Part shown: piece by piece, positions 3,046 to 37,692 of the stretch | Layout: each line of letters opens with the position of its first letter | Numbering within the stretch: position 1 is the stretch's first letter | DNA from: Mycolicibacterium aubagnense | Lineage (GTDB): Bacteria > Actinomycetota > Actinomycetes > Mycobacteriales > Mycobacteriaceae | Direction: 5' to 3' | DNA length: 64,000 nt | NCBI RefSeq assembly: GCF_010730955.1 | Contig: NZ_AP022577.1 | Location: forward strand, 3,224,001-3,288,000 | Notes under the pieces: model-generated | The model's database searches: none | What the model was told of the DNA's origin: nothing | The model's input: the letters and a program-made list of their open reading frames with translations, nothing else | Position numbers and translations under genes: made by a program

Positions 3046-4233
3046 TCACGCAGTGCCGTGATCGGTGCCATCGCCGACGACGGTCACGTCGCCGGAGGTG
3101 CACGGCTCCTGATGCCAGTCCCCGAACGGATCCGGGTAGTCGGACCAGGCGCCGCGCACGGCGAATTCCTCGTCGGTCAGCAAGGCGCCGTTCAGCGCAG
3201 CGGTGACATCGTCGGGGCGGGCGCCGCACACCAGAATGATCATCGCGGTGTTCCGGTCCCCGAAGTCGTTGTCCCACATCAGGTCTGCCAGAGCTCGCCG
3301 TTCGCGGTCCAGGTAGGCCGCTTCGCTGACGGTCATGGCGGCGATCCACCGGCCGGCATTGCTGACCCGCAGGCCGCCGCCGGCCGACTCCAGCCACATG
3401 ACGTGATCAGCCCTGTTGGCCAACCAGATCCGGCCACGGGTCCGGATCACCCCGTCCAGGAGGTGGTCGATGGCGTCGTGCAGGCGTTCGGGGTGGAATG
3501 GCCGGCGCGCGTTGAACTCAACAATCTGAACGGGCCCTTCAGGTTTGAGGCTGGGCTGCCCGGCGAGCAGCGGTCCGTGCGGCTCGTCGGCGCGGCCCAG
3601 CCGGGCGTCGGGCCGCAAGGTGCGCAACGCACCCTCGACCAGGTCGGGCTCGGTGACGAGCCGCGCTCGCGGTGCCAGCCGGCGGCAGGCCGCCAACAGC
3701 ACGGGTTCGGCGTGGGTCACCACGAGCACGTCGGCGAACTCCGCCTGCCCCACTGCCACCTGGGCGACGGTCCGACCGTCGGGCAGTTCGTCGTCGCCAA
3801 GCGCCTCGGACAGCCAGTCGGACGCTTCGATGCACGTCACCACACCCGCAATCGCCACATCCCGGGCAGCCGGCCCGTCGATATATCCGGGGCCGACGTG
3901 CACGCGTACGTGGTTGATGGCCCAGCAGATCGGCTCGGGCTCCATCCACGGCTCCAGGTGGACCACGATCCGGTGGATGTCGTCGCGCCGGTGCAGCAGG
4001 CGCAGGTAGATCAGCAGGTCATTGCGGACAGTGCAGGACACGCAGCCGTGGGCCAGTTCCAGCGCCGCCTCGGTTTCGTTGACGATGCCGTGGGGCGCGG
4101 TGACGGTGCGACGGCGCACGACGTGACCGTCGAACTGGTGCTCCACGAGCACCGTGCCCGGCCCCTTCAACAGTTCCTCGGTCGCGTATCCGGTCGGTCC
4201 CTGACCAGCCACGACGATCACCGGCGTCCGCAT
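3046..4233 (-). CDS. COG0523/CobW-like protein of the Zur regulon (Rv0106 type), P-loop degenerate
   Basis: A 395-residue protein resembling the COG0523 metallochaperone-like GTPases and, in its N-terminal sequence (MRTPVIVVAGQ…) and gene position, M. tuberculosis Rv0106. I choose ATG 4233 because AAGGAG sits five bases before it; the GTG at 4239 would abut that site. COG0523 proteins normally have a GxxGxGKT P-loop and a CxCC metal motif. Here the first is GQGPTGYA without Lys/Thr, and the second is GCVSC. So GTP hydrolysis is doubtful and a scaffold or zinc-sensing role is more likely. It diverges from the C-minus ribosomal protein genes with a Zur-like box just upstream of its start. A Zur-regulated factor (Mrf) is known to recruit a hibernation factor to C-minus ribosomes in mycobacteria; equating it with this gene is inference. 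Confidence 0.8.
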   Translation of the reverse strand: MRTPVIVVAGQGPTGYATEELLKGPGTVLVEHQFDGHVVRRRTVTAPHGIVNETEAALELAHGCVSCTVRNDLLIYLRLLHRRDDIHRIVVHLEPWMEPEPICWAINHVRVHVGPGYIDGPAARDVAIAGVVTCIEASDWLSEALGDDELPDGRTVAQVAVGQAEFADVLVVTHAEPVLLAACRRLAPRARLVTEPDLVEGALRTLRPDARLGRADEPHGPLLAGQPSLKPEGPVQIVEFNARRPFHPERLHDAIDHLLDGVIRTRGRIWLANRADHVMWLESAGGGLRVSNAGRWIAAMTVSEAAYLDRERRALADLMWDNDFGDRNTAMIILVCGARPDDVTAALNGALLTDEEFAVRGAWSDYPDPFGDWHQEPCTSGDVTVVGDGTDHGTA

Positions 4234-4244
4234 CGCCACTCCTT

Positions 4245-4263
4245 ATCGACAATCATTTTCAAT
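4245..4263 (-). promoter_or_regulatory. Zur-like box upstream of the COG0523 gene
   Basis: On the minus strand this reads GAAAATGATTGTC, a GAAAA-N3-TTNTC dyad like the actinobacterial Zur operator. It lies about 12 bp before the COG0523 start codon, so a bound zinc-loaded Zur would block transcription. The half-site symmetry is visible; Zur identity is inferred from the zinc-free ribosomal proteins next door. Confidence 0.65.
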
Positions 4264-4299
4264 TCGGTCGCTGCCACGCTACAGTGGCGGTCGGCACTT

Positions 4300-4319
4300 G
4301 TCGAAAACGATTTTCATTA
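4300..4319 (+). promoter_or_regulatory. Zur-like box upstream of C-minus ribosomal operon
   Basis: GAAAACGATTTTC forms a perfect GAAAA-N3-TTTTC dyad 21 bp before the L28 start codon. Its centre is about 55 bp from that of the second copy, which faces the COG0523 gene. The two boxes would let one zinc-dependent repressor control both divergent units. Confidence 0.7.
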
Positions 4320-4336
4320 ACGATAGGGCATGAGAC

Positions 4337-4573
4337 ATGTCAGCGCACTGCCAGGTCACCGGGCGCCGGCCCGGCTTCGGCAACACGGTTTCGCACTCCA
4401 ACCGCCGCACCTCGCGTCGGTGGAACCCCAACATCCAGACCAAGACCTACTACCTACCTTCGGAAGGCCGGCGGATCCGGCTCCAGGTCAGCACCAAGGG
4501 CATCAAGGTGATCGACCGGGACGGCATCGAAGCCGTCGTGGCCCGACTGCGTCGAGACGGGGTGCGAATCTAG
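4337..4573 (+). CDS. rpmB: 50S ribosomal protein L28, zinc-independent (C-minus) form
   Basis: A 78-residue L28 ([20 protein letters not shown]…) that would replace the zinc-binding L28 in the large subunit. It keeps the [15 protein letters not shown] core but lacks the paired CxxC zinc ligands of the C-plus form; only Cys5 remains. It is the first gene of a tight four-gene operon; the L33 start follows the stop immediately. The Zur-like box upstream indicates derepression under zinc limitation, when such paralogues free zinc held in ribosomes. Confidence 0.93.
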
Positions 4574-4738
4574 ATGTCCCGCACCGATATTCGTCCCGTG
4601 GTGAAGCTGAAGTCCACCGCGGGCACCGGCTACACGTACGTCACCCGCAAGAACCGGCGCAACGATCCCGATCGGCTGGTGCTGCGCAAATACGACCCGA
4701 TCATCCGCAAGCACGTCGACTTCCGCGAGGAGCGCTGA
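4574..4738 (+). CDS. rpmG: 50S ribosomal protein L33, zinc-independent (C-minus) form
   Basis: A 54-residue L33 starting at the ATG directly after the L28 stop codon. It contains the L33 signature [21 protein letters not shown] and ends in REER. The positions of the two CxxC pairs of zinc-binding L33 are occupied by non-cysteine residues (KSTAGTGY and YDPIIRKH); the protein contains no cysteine at all. Second gene of the C-minus operon. Confidence 0.92.
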
Positions 4739-4744
4739 GCCGCC

Positions 4745-5050
4745 ATGGCCAAGAAATCGAAGATCGCCAAAAACGAGCAGCGCCGGCTGACCGTCGCGCG
4801 TTATACCGAGCGCCGGACCGAACTCAAGGCAATCATCAAGTCCCCGCTGAGTACTGCCGACGAACAGGCCGCGGCCATGCGGGAACTGGCCCGCCAGCCG
4901 CGCGACGCGAGCCCGGTGCGCGTGCGCAACCGTGACGCCGTCGACGGCCGCCCGCGCGGTCATCTGCGTAAGTTCGGACTGTCCCGGGTCCGGGTACGGG
5001 AAATGGCGCACGAAGGACAACTGCCCGGCATCCGGAAAGCGAGCTGGTGA
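4745..5050 (+). CDS. rpsN: 30S ribosomal protein S14, zinc-independent (C-minus) form
   Basis: A 101-residue S14 of the long, zinc-free type ([14 protein letters not shown]…[18 protein letters not shown]). It is longer than the roughly 61-residue zinc-binding S14 and has no cysteine. The C-terminal [21 protein letters not shown] is the universally conserved S14 core. It begins six bases after the L33 stop, and its TGA overlaps the S18 ATG by one base. Confidence 0.94.
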
Positions 5051-5283
5051 TGGCGCAGCGCAAGACCAGTCGGCGGCCGGTTGAAACGAAACGGCCCGCC
5101 GCGAACATGTTCACCAAGCTCGGGATCGAGCGCATCGACTACAAGGACACCGCCGTGCTGCGGCAGTTCATCTCGGAGCGCGGGAAGATCCGGTCCCGGC
5201 GCGTGACCGGCCTGACCGTCCAGCAACAGCGGCAGGTCGCCACCGCGATCAAGAACGCCCGGGAAATGGCGTTGCTCCCCTAA
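5050..5283 (+). CDS. rpsR: 30S ribosomal protein S18, zinc-independent (C-minus) form
   Basis: A 77-residue S18 with the family core [19 protein letters not shown] and [20 protein letters not shown]. The segment that carries cysteines in the zinc-binding paralogue reads NMFTKLG, and the GNCV position reads GLTV, so no zinc site remains. I use the ATG at 5050, which overlaps the S14 stop (TGATG), rather than the GTG one codon upstream. Its stop overlaps that of the convergent rhomboid gene by a few bases. Last gene of the C-minus operon. Confidence 0.94.
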
Positions 5284-6131
5284 CCCGGGATCATCCCGTA
5301 CATCGTCTGTAGCTGCTGCGTCCGCAGCAGCACCAAGCCGACGAACAGTACGAGCAACACCGTGGTCACCGAGATCAGCGCCAGGAGTCGTTGCCGTGCA
5401 GGGATATACGCGAAGACAGCCGCCACCAACGTGCCGGTGACCAAGCCGCCGACGTGGCCCTGCCAACTGATCGACTGGGAGCTGACCGCGGGTAGCACGA
5501 AGGTGATCACCAGGTTGATGACGATGAGCAGTGCGATGCCGCGGACCTGAAGCTGCAGCCGCCGGAAGAGGACGAACGTCGCGCCGAACAGGCCGAAGAT
5601 CGCGCCCGACGCGCCGGCGGTACCCGAGTTCAGCGGTGACAGCAGATACACCAGGACCGCCCCACCGAGGCCACTGAGCGCGTACAAGACCCCGAAGCGA
5701 AGCCGGCCCAGCCATTGCTCCAACTGCGGCCCGACCGCCCACAGCGCCCACATGTTGAAGACGATGTGCGCCAGGCCGTAGTGCAGGAAAGCAGACGTCA
5801 CCAAGCGGTAGTACTGGCCGTAGACGGCAACGCCGGGCGGCCAGAGCACCAGATCCTGCTGCATCTGCGCCGAGGTGTGCTGCAACACGAACATCACCAG
5901 GTTGACCGCGATCAGCGTGTAGGTGACCGGCGAGCCCTTGGCGATCCGGCCGCCGAAGTGGGTCCGGGCCTGACGGACCGACTGCCTGCCTTCGTTGACG
6001 CACTCCGGGCATTGCTGGCCGACCGCAGCCGACGTCATACAGTCCGGGCAGATCGGACGGCCGCACCGGCTGCAGCTCACGTACGTCGGGCGGCTGGGAT
6101 GCCGATAGCAGGTCGGCGTCGGGACGGTCAT
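5280..6131 (-). CDS. Rhomboid-family intramembrane serine protease
   Basis: A 283-residue membrane protease. The N-terminus has a small zinc-ribbon/B-box-like segment (CYRHPSR…[13 protein letters not shown]…CPEC, residues about 8-42), then six or seven membrane helices. The catalytic serine is in GASGAIFG and the histidine in [11 protein letters not shown]; the oxyanion-side HxxxN appears as HIVFNMW. It should cleave within or near membrane segments of client proteins. A rhomboid gene close to an Rv0106-type gene and an L28 gene is also found in M. tuberculosis (Rv0110 near Rv0105c-Rv0106), which supports conserved synteny. Clients unknown. Confidence 0.92.
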
Positions 6132-36491: not shown

Positions 36492-37692
36492 CCGTCAACA
36501 GGATGTACTGGGCGGCAACCTGTTCGTGGGCGTCCTTCAATTCGGTACCGCGTGCCTCGATGACGTAATTGCCGGCGGGCGCGACACAATAGAACTGCTT
36601 GGGGTTGGCCAACAAGATGCAGCGACTGAGTGCCAGCCCGGGCACCGGATCGGCGGTCTCGGTGCCGTCGACCGACACCTCTTTGCCGAAGGCGTTCGCC
36701 ACGTTCACAGCTGACGCGGGGTCCTTTGCCTGGTACACGCCGGTCTTCCCGCGCGCGAACCCCGTCACGCCGTTGTCCTGGAACACTCTGGCCGAGGAGA
36801 TCGGGTTGCTCTGGAAGTGCAAGGCCCCGGTACCGGAGTAGACGGCGTTCTGGGAGTTGCGTGGCGAATCGGTCAGCAACGTCAACGCCAGGAGTCCCGT
36901 CGGATCGACCGGCACCGACGCCAGCTCGGCCGCCGGTTTGAACGGATCGATCGCACCGATCTGCGCGCCTATGGCCTTGGCCACCAACGCGATGGCGGGA
37001 TCGGGACCGGCTGTCGATTGGGCCAACTGGATCAGGACGTAGGGGCCGTGCGCGGTGAACGACCGCGCGGTGGTCAACTTCGCACCGTGGGAATCGATGT
37101 CGTATGTCGACGCCAGTGCATCCGGATGGTCGGGAATGGCAACGGTTTTCGGCTCCGCGCCGCGAATCTTGAGCTGGAGGGCCGCCGCATTCATCTCACC
37201 TGCGGCGGCGCCGGCATCGGCCGGGGAGGCAAAACGCAGTACGCCATTGATCAGTACGGACTTTGTCTCAGACTCCCGCGCAGAAGCGAACCCATCGATG
37301 AAGTTGTGCCTGCCGGCGGCGGTCGCGATGCTTTCGGGTCCGAACTGGGCCAGGACGCCGGGCTCGTCGATCACGAAATACGTTGACAGATAAGGATCGG
37401 TGAGCGTGCTGTCGACCGCCCACGGTCCCACCACATAACCGGCCAGCTGCTGCGACTCGACTTTCGCGCCGATCGCCGGGGTACCCGCGGCGCCGTAGGG
37501 TTCATGCGCCTTGGTCGGGTAAACGCCCGGTTTCAACTGCGCCGGAGCGACGATCGCCGGCGGCGGCGGTGCCGTGGAGGTCGTCGGCTTCGACGACGAC
37601 GTCGCCGGGCTGGACTGCGTTGACCCGCCGCCGCAGCCGACGGCCAGCACCGCCACCACGACTGCCGCTCCGCAGTTGACCAGACCCCGCAT
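36481..37692 (-). CDS. Mycobacterial lipoprotein of unknown function (DUF7373-like)
   Basis: A 403-residue predicted lipoprotein: signal peptide VVVAVLAVGCGGG with lipobox Cys20, then a Ser/Thr/Pro linker and a large soluble domain (LKPGVYPTKAHEPYGAAGTPAIGAKVESQQLAGYVVGPW…). The domain looks like two similar alpha/beta halves (FIDGFASARES…, GVTGFARGKTGVYQAKDPA…), with a Cys pair near the C-terminus (LSRCILL, FYCVAP). I assign it tentatively to the mycobacterial DUF7373 lipoproteins from overall pattern. ATG start with GGGAGG upstream. Role unknown; extracytoplasmic. Confidence 0.75.
   Translation of the reverse strand: MRGLVNCGAAVVVAVLAVGCGGGSTQSSPATSSSKPTTSTAPPPPAIVAPAQLKPGVYPTKAHEPYGAAGTPAIGAKVESQQLAGYVVGPWAVDSTLTDPYLSTYFVIDEPGVLAQFGPESIATAAGRHNFIDGFASARESETKSVLINGVLRFASPADAGAAAGEMNAAALQLKIRGAEPKTVAIPDHPDALASTYDIDSHGAKLTTARSFTAHGPYVLIQLAQSTAGPDPAIALVAKAIGAQIGAIDPFKPAAELASVPVDPTGLLALTLLTDSPRNSQNAVYSGTGALHFQSNPISSARVFQDNGVTGFARGKTGVYQAKDPASAVNVANAFGKEVSVDGTETADPVPGLALSRCILLANPKQFYCVAPAGNYVIEARGTELKDAHEQVAAQYILLTAKP

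Follow-up and report, generated by a model that had tools for sequence, protein, structure and literature searches.

Zinc-starvation ribosome modules in mycobacteria

The closest described system is that of M. smegmatis, in which MSMEG_6065-6068 and MSMEG_6069 carry Zur boxes and show changes of hundreds- to thousands-fold, and in which MSMEG_6069 has been named the MPY recruitment factor (PMC7174638, in the accessible portion of the text). For this species derepression, remodelling, MPY recruitment and zinc-dependent Clp turnover of MRF have all been published, as given in the available excerpts of the literature. According to PMC5912738 (excerpted text), mycobacteria other than M. leprae conserve the altRP operon, and M. 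avium strains have it in truncated form. The M. tuberculosis orthologues are Rv0106 for MRF and Rv2055c-Rv2058c for the four ribosomal proteins, and a review, available in part, places Rv0106 next to another L28 copy.

A zinc-free ribosomal protein operon lies opposite an MRF gene

In the window, the whole 64-kb stretch of DNA that was analysed, a tight L28-L33-S14-S18 operon (4337-5283, plus strand) lies opposite a COG0523-like gene (3046-4239, minus strand). The open reading frames are positioned as the first-pass annotation had placed them:

3046..4239, minus strand: MRF gene, COG0523-like and P-loop-less (NF047431, motif table)
4337..4573, plus strand: zinc-free L28 with a lone Cys5 (Pfam PF00830, comparison with the C-plus copy)
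4574..4738, plus strand: zinc-free L33, no Cys (PF00471)
4745..5050, plus strand: zinc-free S14, no Cys (PF00253)
5050..5283, plus strand: zinc-free S18, no Cys (PF01084)

All four plus-strand proteins exceed their Pfam cut-offs, and the genome (6.3 Mb, two contigs) encodes exactly one further copy of each. These C-plus copies carry CDIC and CTSC (L28), CEVC and CPNC (L33), CNRC and CRIC (S14), and CVFC with one additional Cys (S18). The claim that all four window proteins lack the zinc-ligand cysteine pairs is true: there is not one pair among them, and the only cysteine is Cys5 of L28. Four proteins without zinc-ligand pairs, each with a single C-plus copy elsewhere, identify this as a mycobacterial altRP operon.

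The M. smegmatis locus has the same five genes in the same order and orientation with intervening Zur boxes, as far as its description is accessible. The two genomes differ in the placement of zinc-free L31, which in M. smegmatis is MSMEG_6070, the next locus number after MRF, and which in the window genome lies about 1.1 Mb from the module, with high-scoring Zur sites of its own. In M. tuberculosis, unlike in the window, the gene numbers indicate that MRF lies apart from the four-gene operon. Among relatives, 52 of the 54 loci retrieved, a set that includes the window and counts some contigs twice, place L28 in divergent orientation to MRF. All 24 loci found in the contig collection with the window MRF have an adjoining divergent L28, and 17 have all four genes; for the best 30 of 61 genome matches over the cut-off (L003-L032, window included) these counts are 28 and 21, in stretches that reach only about 1.5 kb beyond the match, so that S14 or S18 may be missing from some. 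Several of the loci L033-L056 are contigs of L003-L032, and L018 is the window itself. In the closest named loci, M. llatzerense among them, MRF is 83-92% identical. Outside the genus, several stretches hold looser versions of the module beside MRF-like genes, and L28 was not seen in the fetched stretches L091, L094, L095 and L097; these stretches were hand-picked and may include some P-loop rows, and tallies over them are not frequencies.

The module as the first-pass annotation described it is already known, and its layout is ordinary for mycobacteria: the compact divergent unit of five genes, singled out there as the standout feature, is the usual mycobacterial arrangement and has been published for M. 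smegmatis. The genes represent a further instance of the published zinc-starvation system.

A rhomboid protease gene had also been noted as converging on the end of the operon. The convergence holds, as the last 4 nt of the gene (5280-6131, minus strand) and of S18 coincide (5280-5283); membership in the module is not supported. This overlap and the seven N-terminal cysteines of the rhomboid protein (which also has a weak B-box zinc-finger match, under the cut-off) would speak for a functional part of the module, a reading that we regard as extremely improbable, since the gene sits beside the module in only 6 of 24 contig-collection loci (L033-L037, L045), all close relatives, and no strong Zur-matrix match was found near its start. 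We therefore rejected it as a module part and treat it as neighbourhood, a case of local synteny among close relatives.

The MRF protein lacks the GTPase motifs of COG0523 proteins

The minus-strand protein scores 560.1 bits against the NCBIfam model NF047431 (ribosome hibernation factor-recruiting GTPase MRF; cut-off 375). It had been called the product of an Rv0106-type gene; the type was borne out, and the function, which had been left unnamed, matches MRF. Its start is more likely the ATG at 4233 (395 aa), as homologues open with MRTPV. Pfam finds cobW and CobW_C domains, with the cobW match starting only at profile position 48, and a pattern search for Walker A (GxxxxGK[ST]) found no occurrence in the window MRF, in agreement with its earlier description as a P-loop-less COG0523 protein.

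This loss extends well beyond the window. The P-loop is missing in 81 of 81 rows of the MRF alignment (distinct by exact match, with the window protein counted twice, as WIN and L112, and row L094 derived from a match with an in-frame TGA) and is present in 8 of 8 ZigA-type rows (one protein present twice, as L007 and L101); it is also missing in all 120 homologues among the matches listed, of 2255. Compared with the COG0523 GTPases YjiA, ZigA and CobW, MRF has lost Walker A, Walker B and NKxD across the 81 rows, as judged by pattern or by eye (by eye for NKxD in the window protein). Where COG0523 GTPases have CxCC, the window MRF reads CVSC (residues 66-69); both cysteines of this motif are kept in 81 of 81 rows, so that CxCC has shrunk to CxxC, row L103 with CICC being the exception. 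Rv0106 shares these features: a 2009 paper already noted that it lacks the GTPase motifs and has CxSC (PMC2770081, accessible part). A sequence search for a relative with a solved structure gave none at E 0.001. A predicted structure (mean pLDDT 74.5, 46 sequences), used solely for naming the fold, has YjiA as its nearest solved fold.

The fold family, with cobW, CobW_C and the likeness to YjiA, is common to MRF and to zinc metallochaperone GTPases of the ZigA/YciC type, and the protein might be one of these, standing beside the C-minus operon only through a common Zur response. The ZigA model does match it weakly, at 115 bits, and many sources label it a G3E GTPase or a metal chaperone. We nevertheless consider this very improbable and rejected it as first choice on model scores and motif loss: the ZigA score is far under the cut-off of 600, whereas the MRF model passed its own; all 81 MRF rows have lost Walker A, Walker B and NKxD; and the genome also encodes a distinct ZigA-like protein whose motifs are intact and whose gene has a Zur site of its own. 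For the window protein we infer instead that MRF is an adaptor that arose from a COG0523 GTPase and needs no GTP hydrolysis for its function. It lacks the GTPase motifs contrary to its database name, NCBIfam and other sources calling it a GTPase, and since they are missing in every row examined, GTP hydrolysis should not be taken for granted in models of MPY recruitment.

Some genomes have a second MRF-type gene that has no adjoining ribosomal-protein genes (L103, L105, L107, L114).

Two Zur-type dyads separate the divergent genes

The region between MRF and L28 contains two dyads:

4245..4263, no strand: Zur-type dyad 1, MRF-proximal (26.8 bits, matrix of M. smegmatis sites)
4300..4318, no strand: Zur-type dyad 2, L28-proximal, 55 bp from dyad 1 (28.8 bits)

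Their inner sequences, GAAAATGATTGTC (4260-4248, minus strand) and GAAAACGATTTTC (4303-4315, plus strand), are exact matches to the published Zur core, and the two dyads thus face both transcription units as had been proposed. When up to one mismatch to the core is tolerated, 9 strand-wise matches occur in the window where 1.5 are expected, and 0 of 100 shuffles reach 9; a further exact core match lies at 37138-37150. For scoring we built a 19-column matrix from ten published M. smegmatis boxes (PMC7174638 Table 6), among them the smtB site, which the accessible text of that paper gives as a putative box, and excluded the boxes of the homologous M. smegmatis intergenic region. A scan with a Zur matrix, proposed with the first-pass annotation as a means of refuting its Zur reading, left that reading standing: the dyads take the top two ranks in the 64-kb window, with the third-best match at 15.9 bits. 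In 200 first-order Markov sequences of 64 kb the best score was 22.4 bits and the mean 12.0, and with the shuffles this led us to reject chance as the origin of the dyads. Zur boxes of 28.8 and 26.8 bits near the gene starts make both units predicted members of the Zur regulon and support Zur control of a ribosome-remodelling module that includes the Rv0106-type gene.

The third-best match (37135-37153) is under the best simulated score and probably arose by chance.

M. smegmatis probably differs from the window at this point. Its two published boxes appear to be a single palindrome taken once from each strand, so that the locus would be of the one-dyad form.

The space between the dyads holds a predicted bidirectional promoter

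Candidate promoter elements for both directions were found between the dyads, at the edge of dyad 2 and inside dyad 1:

4276..4285, both strands: ACGCTACAGT, predicted overlapping -10 hexamers, TACAGT (plus, 4280-4285) and TAGCGT (minus, 4281-4276)
4299..4304, minus strand: predicted MRF -35, TCGACA, at the edge of dyad 2, 17 bp from the -10
4256..4261, plus strand: predicted L28-operon -35, TTTTCA, inside dyad 1, 18 bp from the -10; weak

The -10 hexamers, one per strand, share TA and overlap by 2 bp, and this geometry would put the transcription starts near 4292 (plus) and 4269 (minus), about 23 bp apart. In M. tuberculosis, start-site mapping gave TAnnnT as the predominant -10 motif and no conserved -35 (PMC3898074, in its accessible part), and the -35 assignments are therefore weaker than those of the -10s. 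The L28 -35 is weaker evidence for a further reason, since the best -35-like hexamer within dyad 1, TTTTCA in most rows and matching TTGACA at 4 of 6 bases, consists of bases that the dyad itself largely dictates.

Conservation was followed in 66 distinct upstream regions (distinct only by exact match over the last 150 nt) from rows with MRF at least 50% identical to that of the window, 59 with a divergent L28 and 7 without. At a threshold of 15 bits, two dyads are present in 43 of the 59 divergent mycobacterial rows, the window region being one of the 43, and one dyad in 16 (42 and 17 at 18 bits). The dyads are 55 bp apart in 34 of the two-dyad rows, 54 bp in 3 and 56 bp in 6. Most bases between them vary, the exceptions being a central ACGSTACMGT and TTGTCGA at the edge of dyad 2. 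AnnnTAnnnT occupies the predicted position in all 43 two-dyad rows, as against 71 of 8600 shuffled spacers, and TCGACA stands exactly 17 bp from the MRF -10 in 42 of 43 (L050 is off by one base), counts that are not independent events because the rows share ancestry. Half of the one-dyad rows (8/16), in which dyad 2 has decayed, keep the -10 pair and a TTGACA-like hexamer (5/6 bases) at 17 bp; a further 2 retain only the -10 pair, and 6 have neither the -10 pair nor the -35. At the zinc-free L31 gene, two Zur dyads (L108:3829-3902, C1:4340828-4340901) are also 55 bp apart and, read by eye, come with TCGACA, 17 bp and TATCGT in the direction of that gene, the opposite strand having TACCTG, which is not a TAnnnT. 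Outside the genus the dyad geometry differs, or no dyad was found within 260 nt.

Taken together, the geometry of dyads and promoter elements, which is the new detail at this locus, suggests one bidirectional promoter with two Zur sites serving both directions. The main rival takes the conserved centre for the palindromic site of another regulator, with both promoters elsewhere, and it draws on the fact that the centre is near a 10-bp palindrome in many rows (ACGGTACCGT in some). We judge this to be somewhat unlikely, given that the two-strand TAnnnT is present in 43 of 43 two-dyad rows even when the palindrome is broken, that the TAnnnT pair and the TTGACA-like hexamer at 17 bp persist in 8 of the 16 one-dyad rows, and that at the L31 promoter a like dyad pair comes with this -35/-10 arrangement for a single direction. 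A second possibility is that there are two separate promoters, each independently tuned by its own dyad, and that the 55-bp spacing reflects common descent only. Lineages with a single dyad do exist (16 of the 59 divergent rows) and the rows are related by descent; against this, the spacing keeps to 54-56 bp, whereas the MRF and L28 genes are separated by anything from 90 to 122 bp in two-dyad rows, and most of the inter-dyad bases vary. Independently tuned promoters thus appear quite unlikely to us.

Overlapping -10 elements on both strands are likewise found in the bidirectional promoters of E. coli, for which a start distance of about 23 bp, the one predicted here, is among those called common (PMC12825309, accessible part); unlike these, the predicted promoter here is flanked by two Zur-type dyads. 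A search of the open-access literature, mostly at the level of record listings, found no description of the MRF/L28 promoter as bidirectional.

Proposed mechanism

The locus is very probably the mycobacterial altRP/MRF module under Zur control, and for it we further propose one bidirectional promoter and a non-GTPase MRF. Both units would start from this promoter, with -10 hexamers predicted to overlap by 2 bp, and each dyad would cover the -35 of one promoter and sit immediately beyond the transcription start of the opposing one. When zinc is present, Zur would occupy both dyads and both directions would be off; as zinc falls, Zur would leave and both transcription units would be made. Newly made ribosomes would then contain the zinc-free L28, L33, S14 and S18 in place of the zinc-binding versions. 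MRF, stabilised as long as its CxxC carries no zinc, would recruit the hibernation factor MPY to these ribosomes.

We are slightly more inclined to accept than to doubt a further proposal: that remodelling and hibernation depend on one symmetric promoter, used in one direction at a time between dyads at a fixed distance, that MRF is a pseudo-GTPase adaptor family-wide, and that competition sets the ratio of the products. If so, competition between polymerases at one site would in part determine the ratio of zinc-free ribosomal proteins to MRF, and the loss of a dyad would have loosened the coupling of remodelling and hibernation in the lineages concerned. At five tested E. coli bidirectional promoters basal transcription was too low for polymerase competition (PMC12825309, accessible text), so competition here would need a strong derepressed state. 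The shared-promoter geometry raises the question of whether the swap of ribosomal proteins and the parking of ribosomes are set by one regulatory event.

Zur sites elsewhere in the genome

Over the whole genome, the published 24-base consensus with at most 3 mismatches gives 25 strand-wise matches versus 3 with a reversed control. High-scoring sites adjoin a gene pair of the SmtB type and the Fur family beside glyS, and a zinc-type ABC transporter whose NCBIfam matches are under the cut-off. The zur candidate clears no Zur-specific NCBIfam cut-off and is so named because it adjoins the SmtB-type gene; in M. smegmatis smtB-zur also carries a listed Zur box (PMC7174638, accessible portion). The ZigA-like COG0523 gene with an intact P-loop (L102:5073-6219, about C1:1816000), scanned as a fragment and under its NCBIfam cut-off, has a 27.5-bit Zur site upstream. 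The genome has one gene of the HPF/YfiA family (MPY-type).

An open reading frame with a long His-Asp/His-Gly run (L109:3833-5373, C1:118832 onward), whose only NCBIfam match is a weak one to a nickel/cobalt transporter, is immediately preceded by a 25.6-bit Zur site. Presumably it encodes a PPE protein, and judging by its sequence it is possibly a Zur-controlled metal-binding surface protein.
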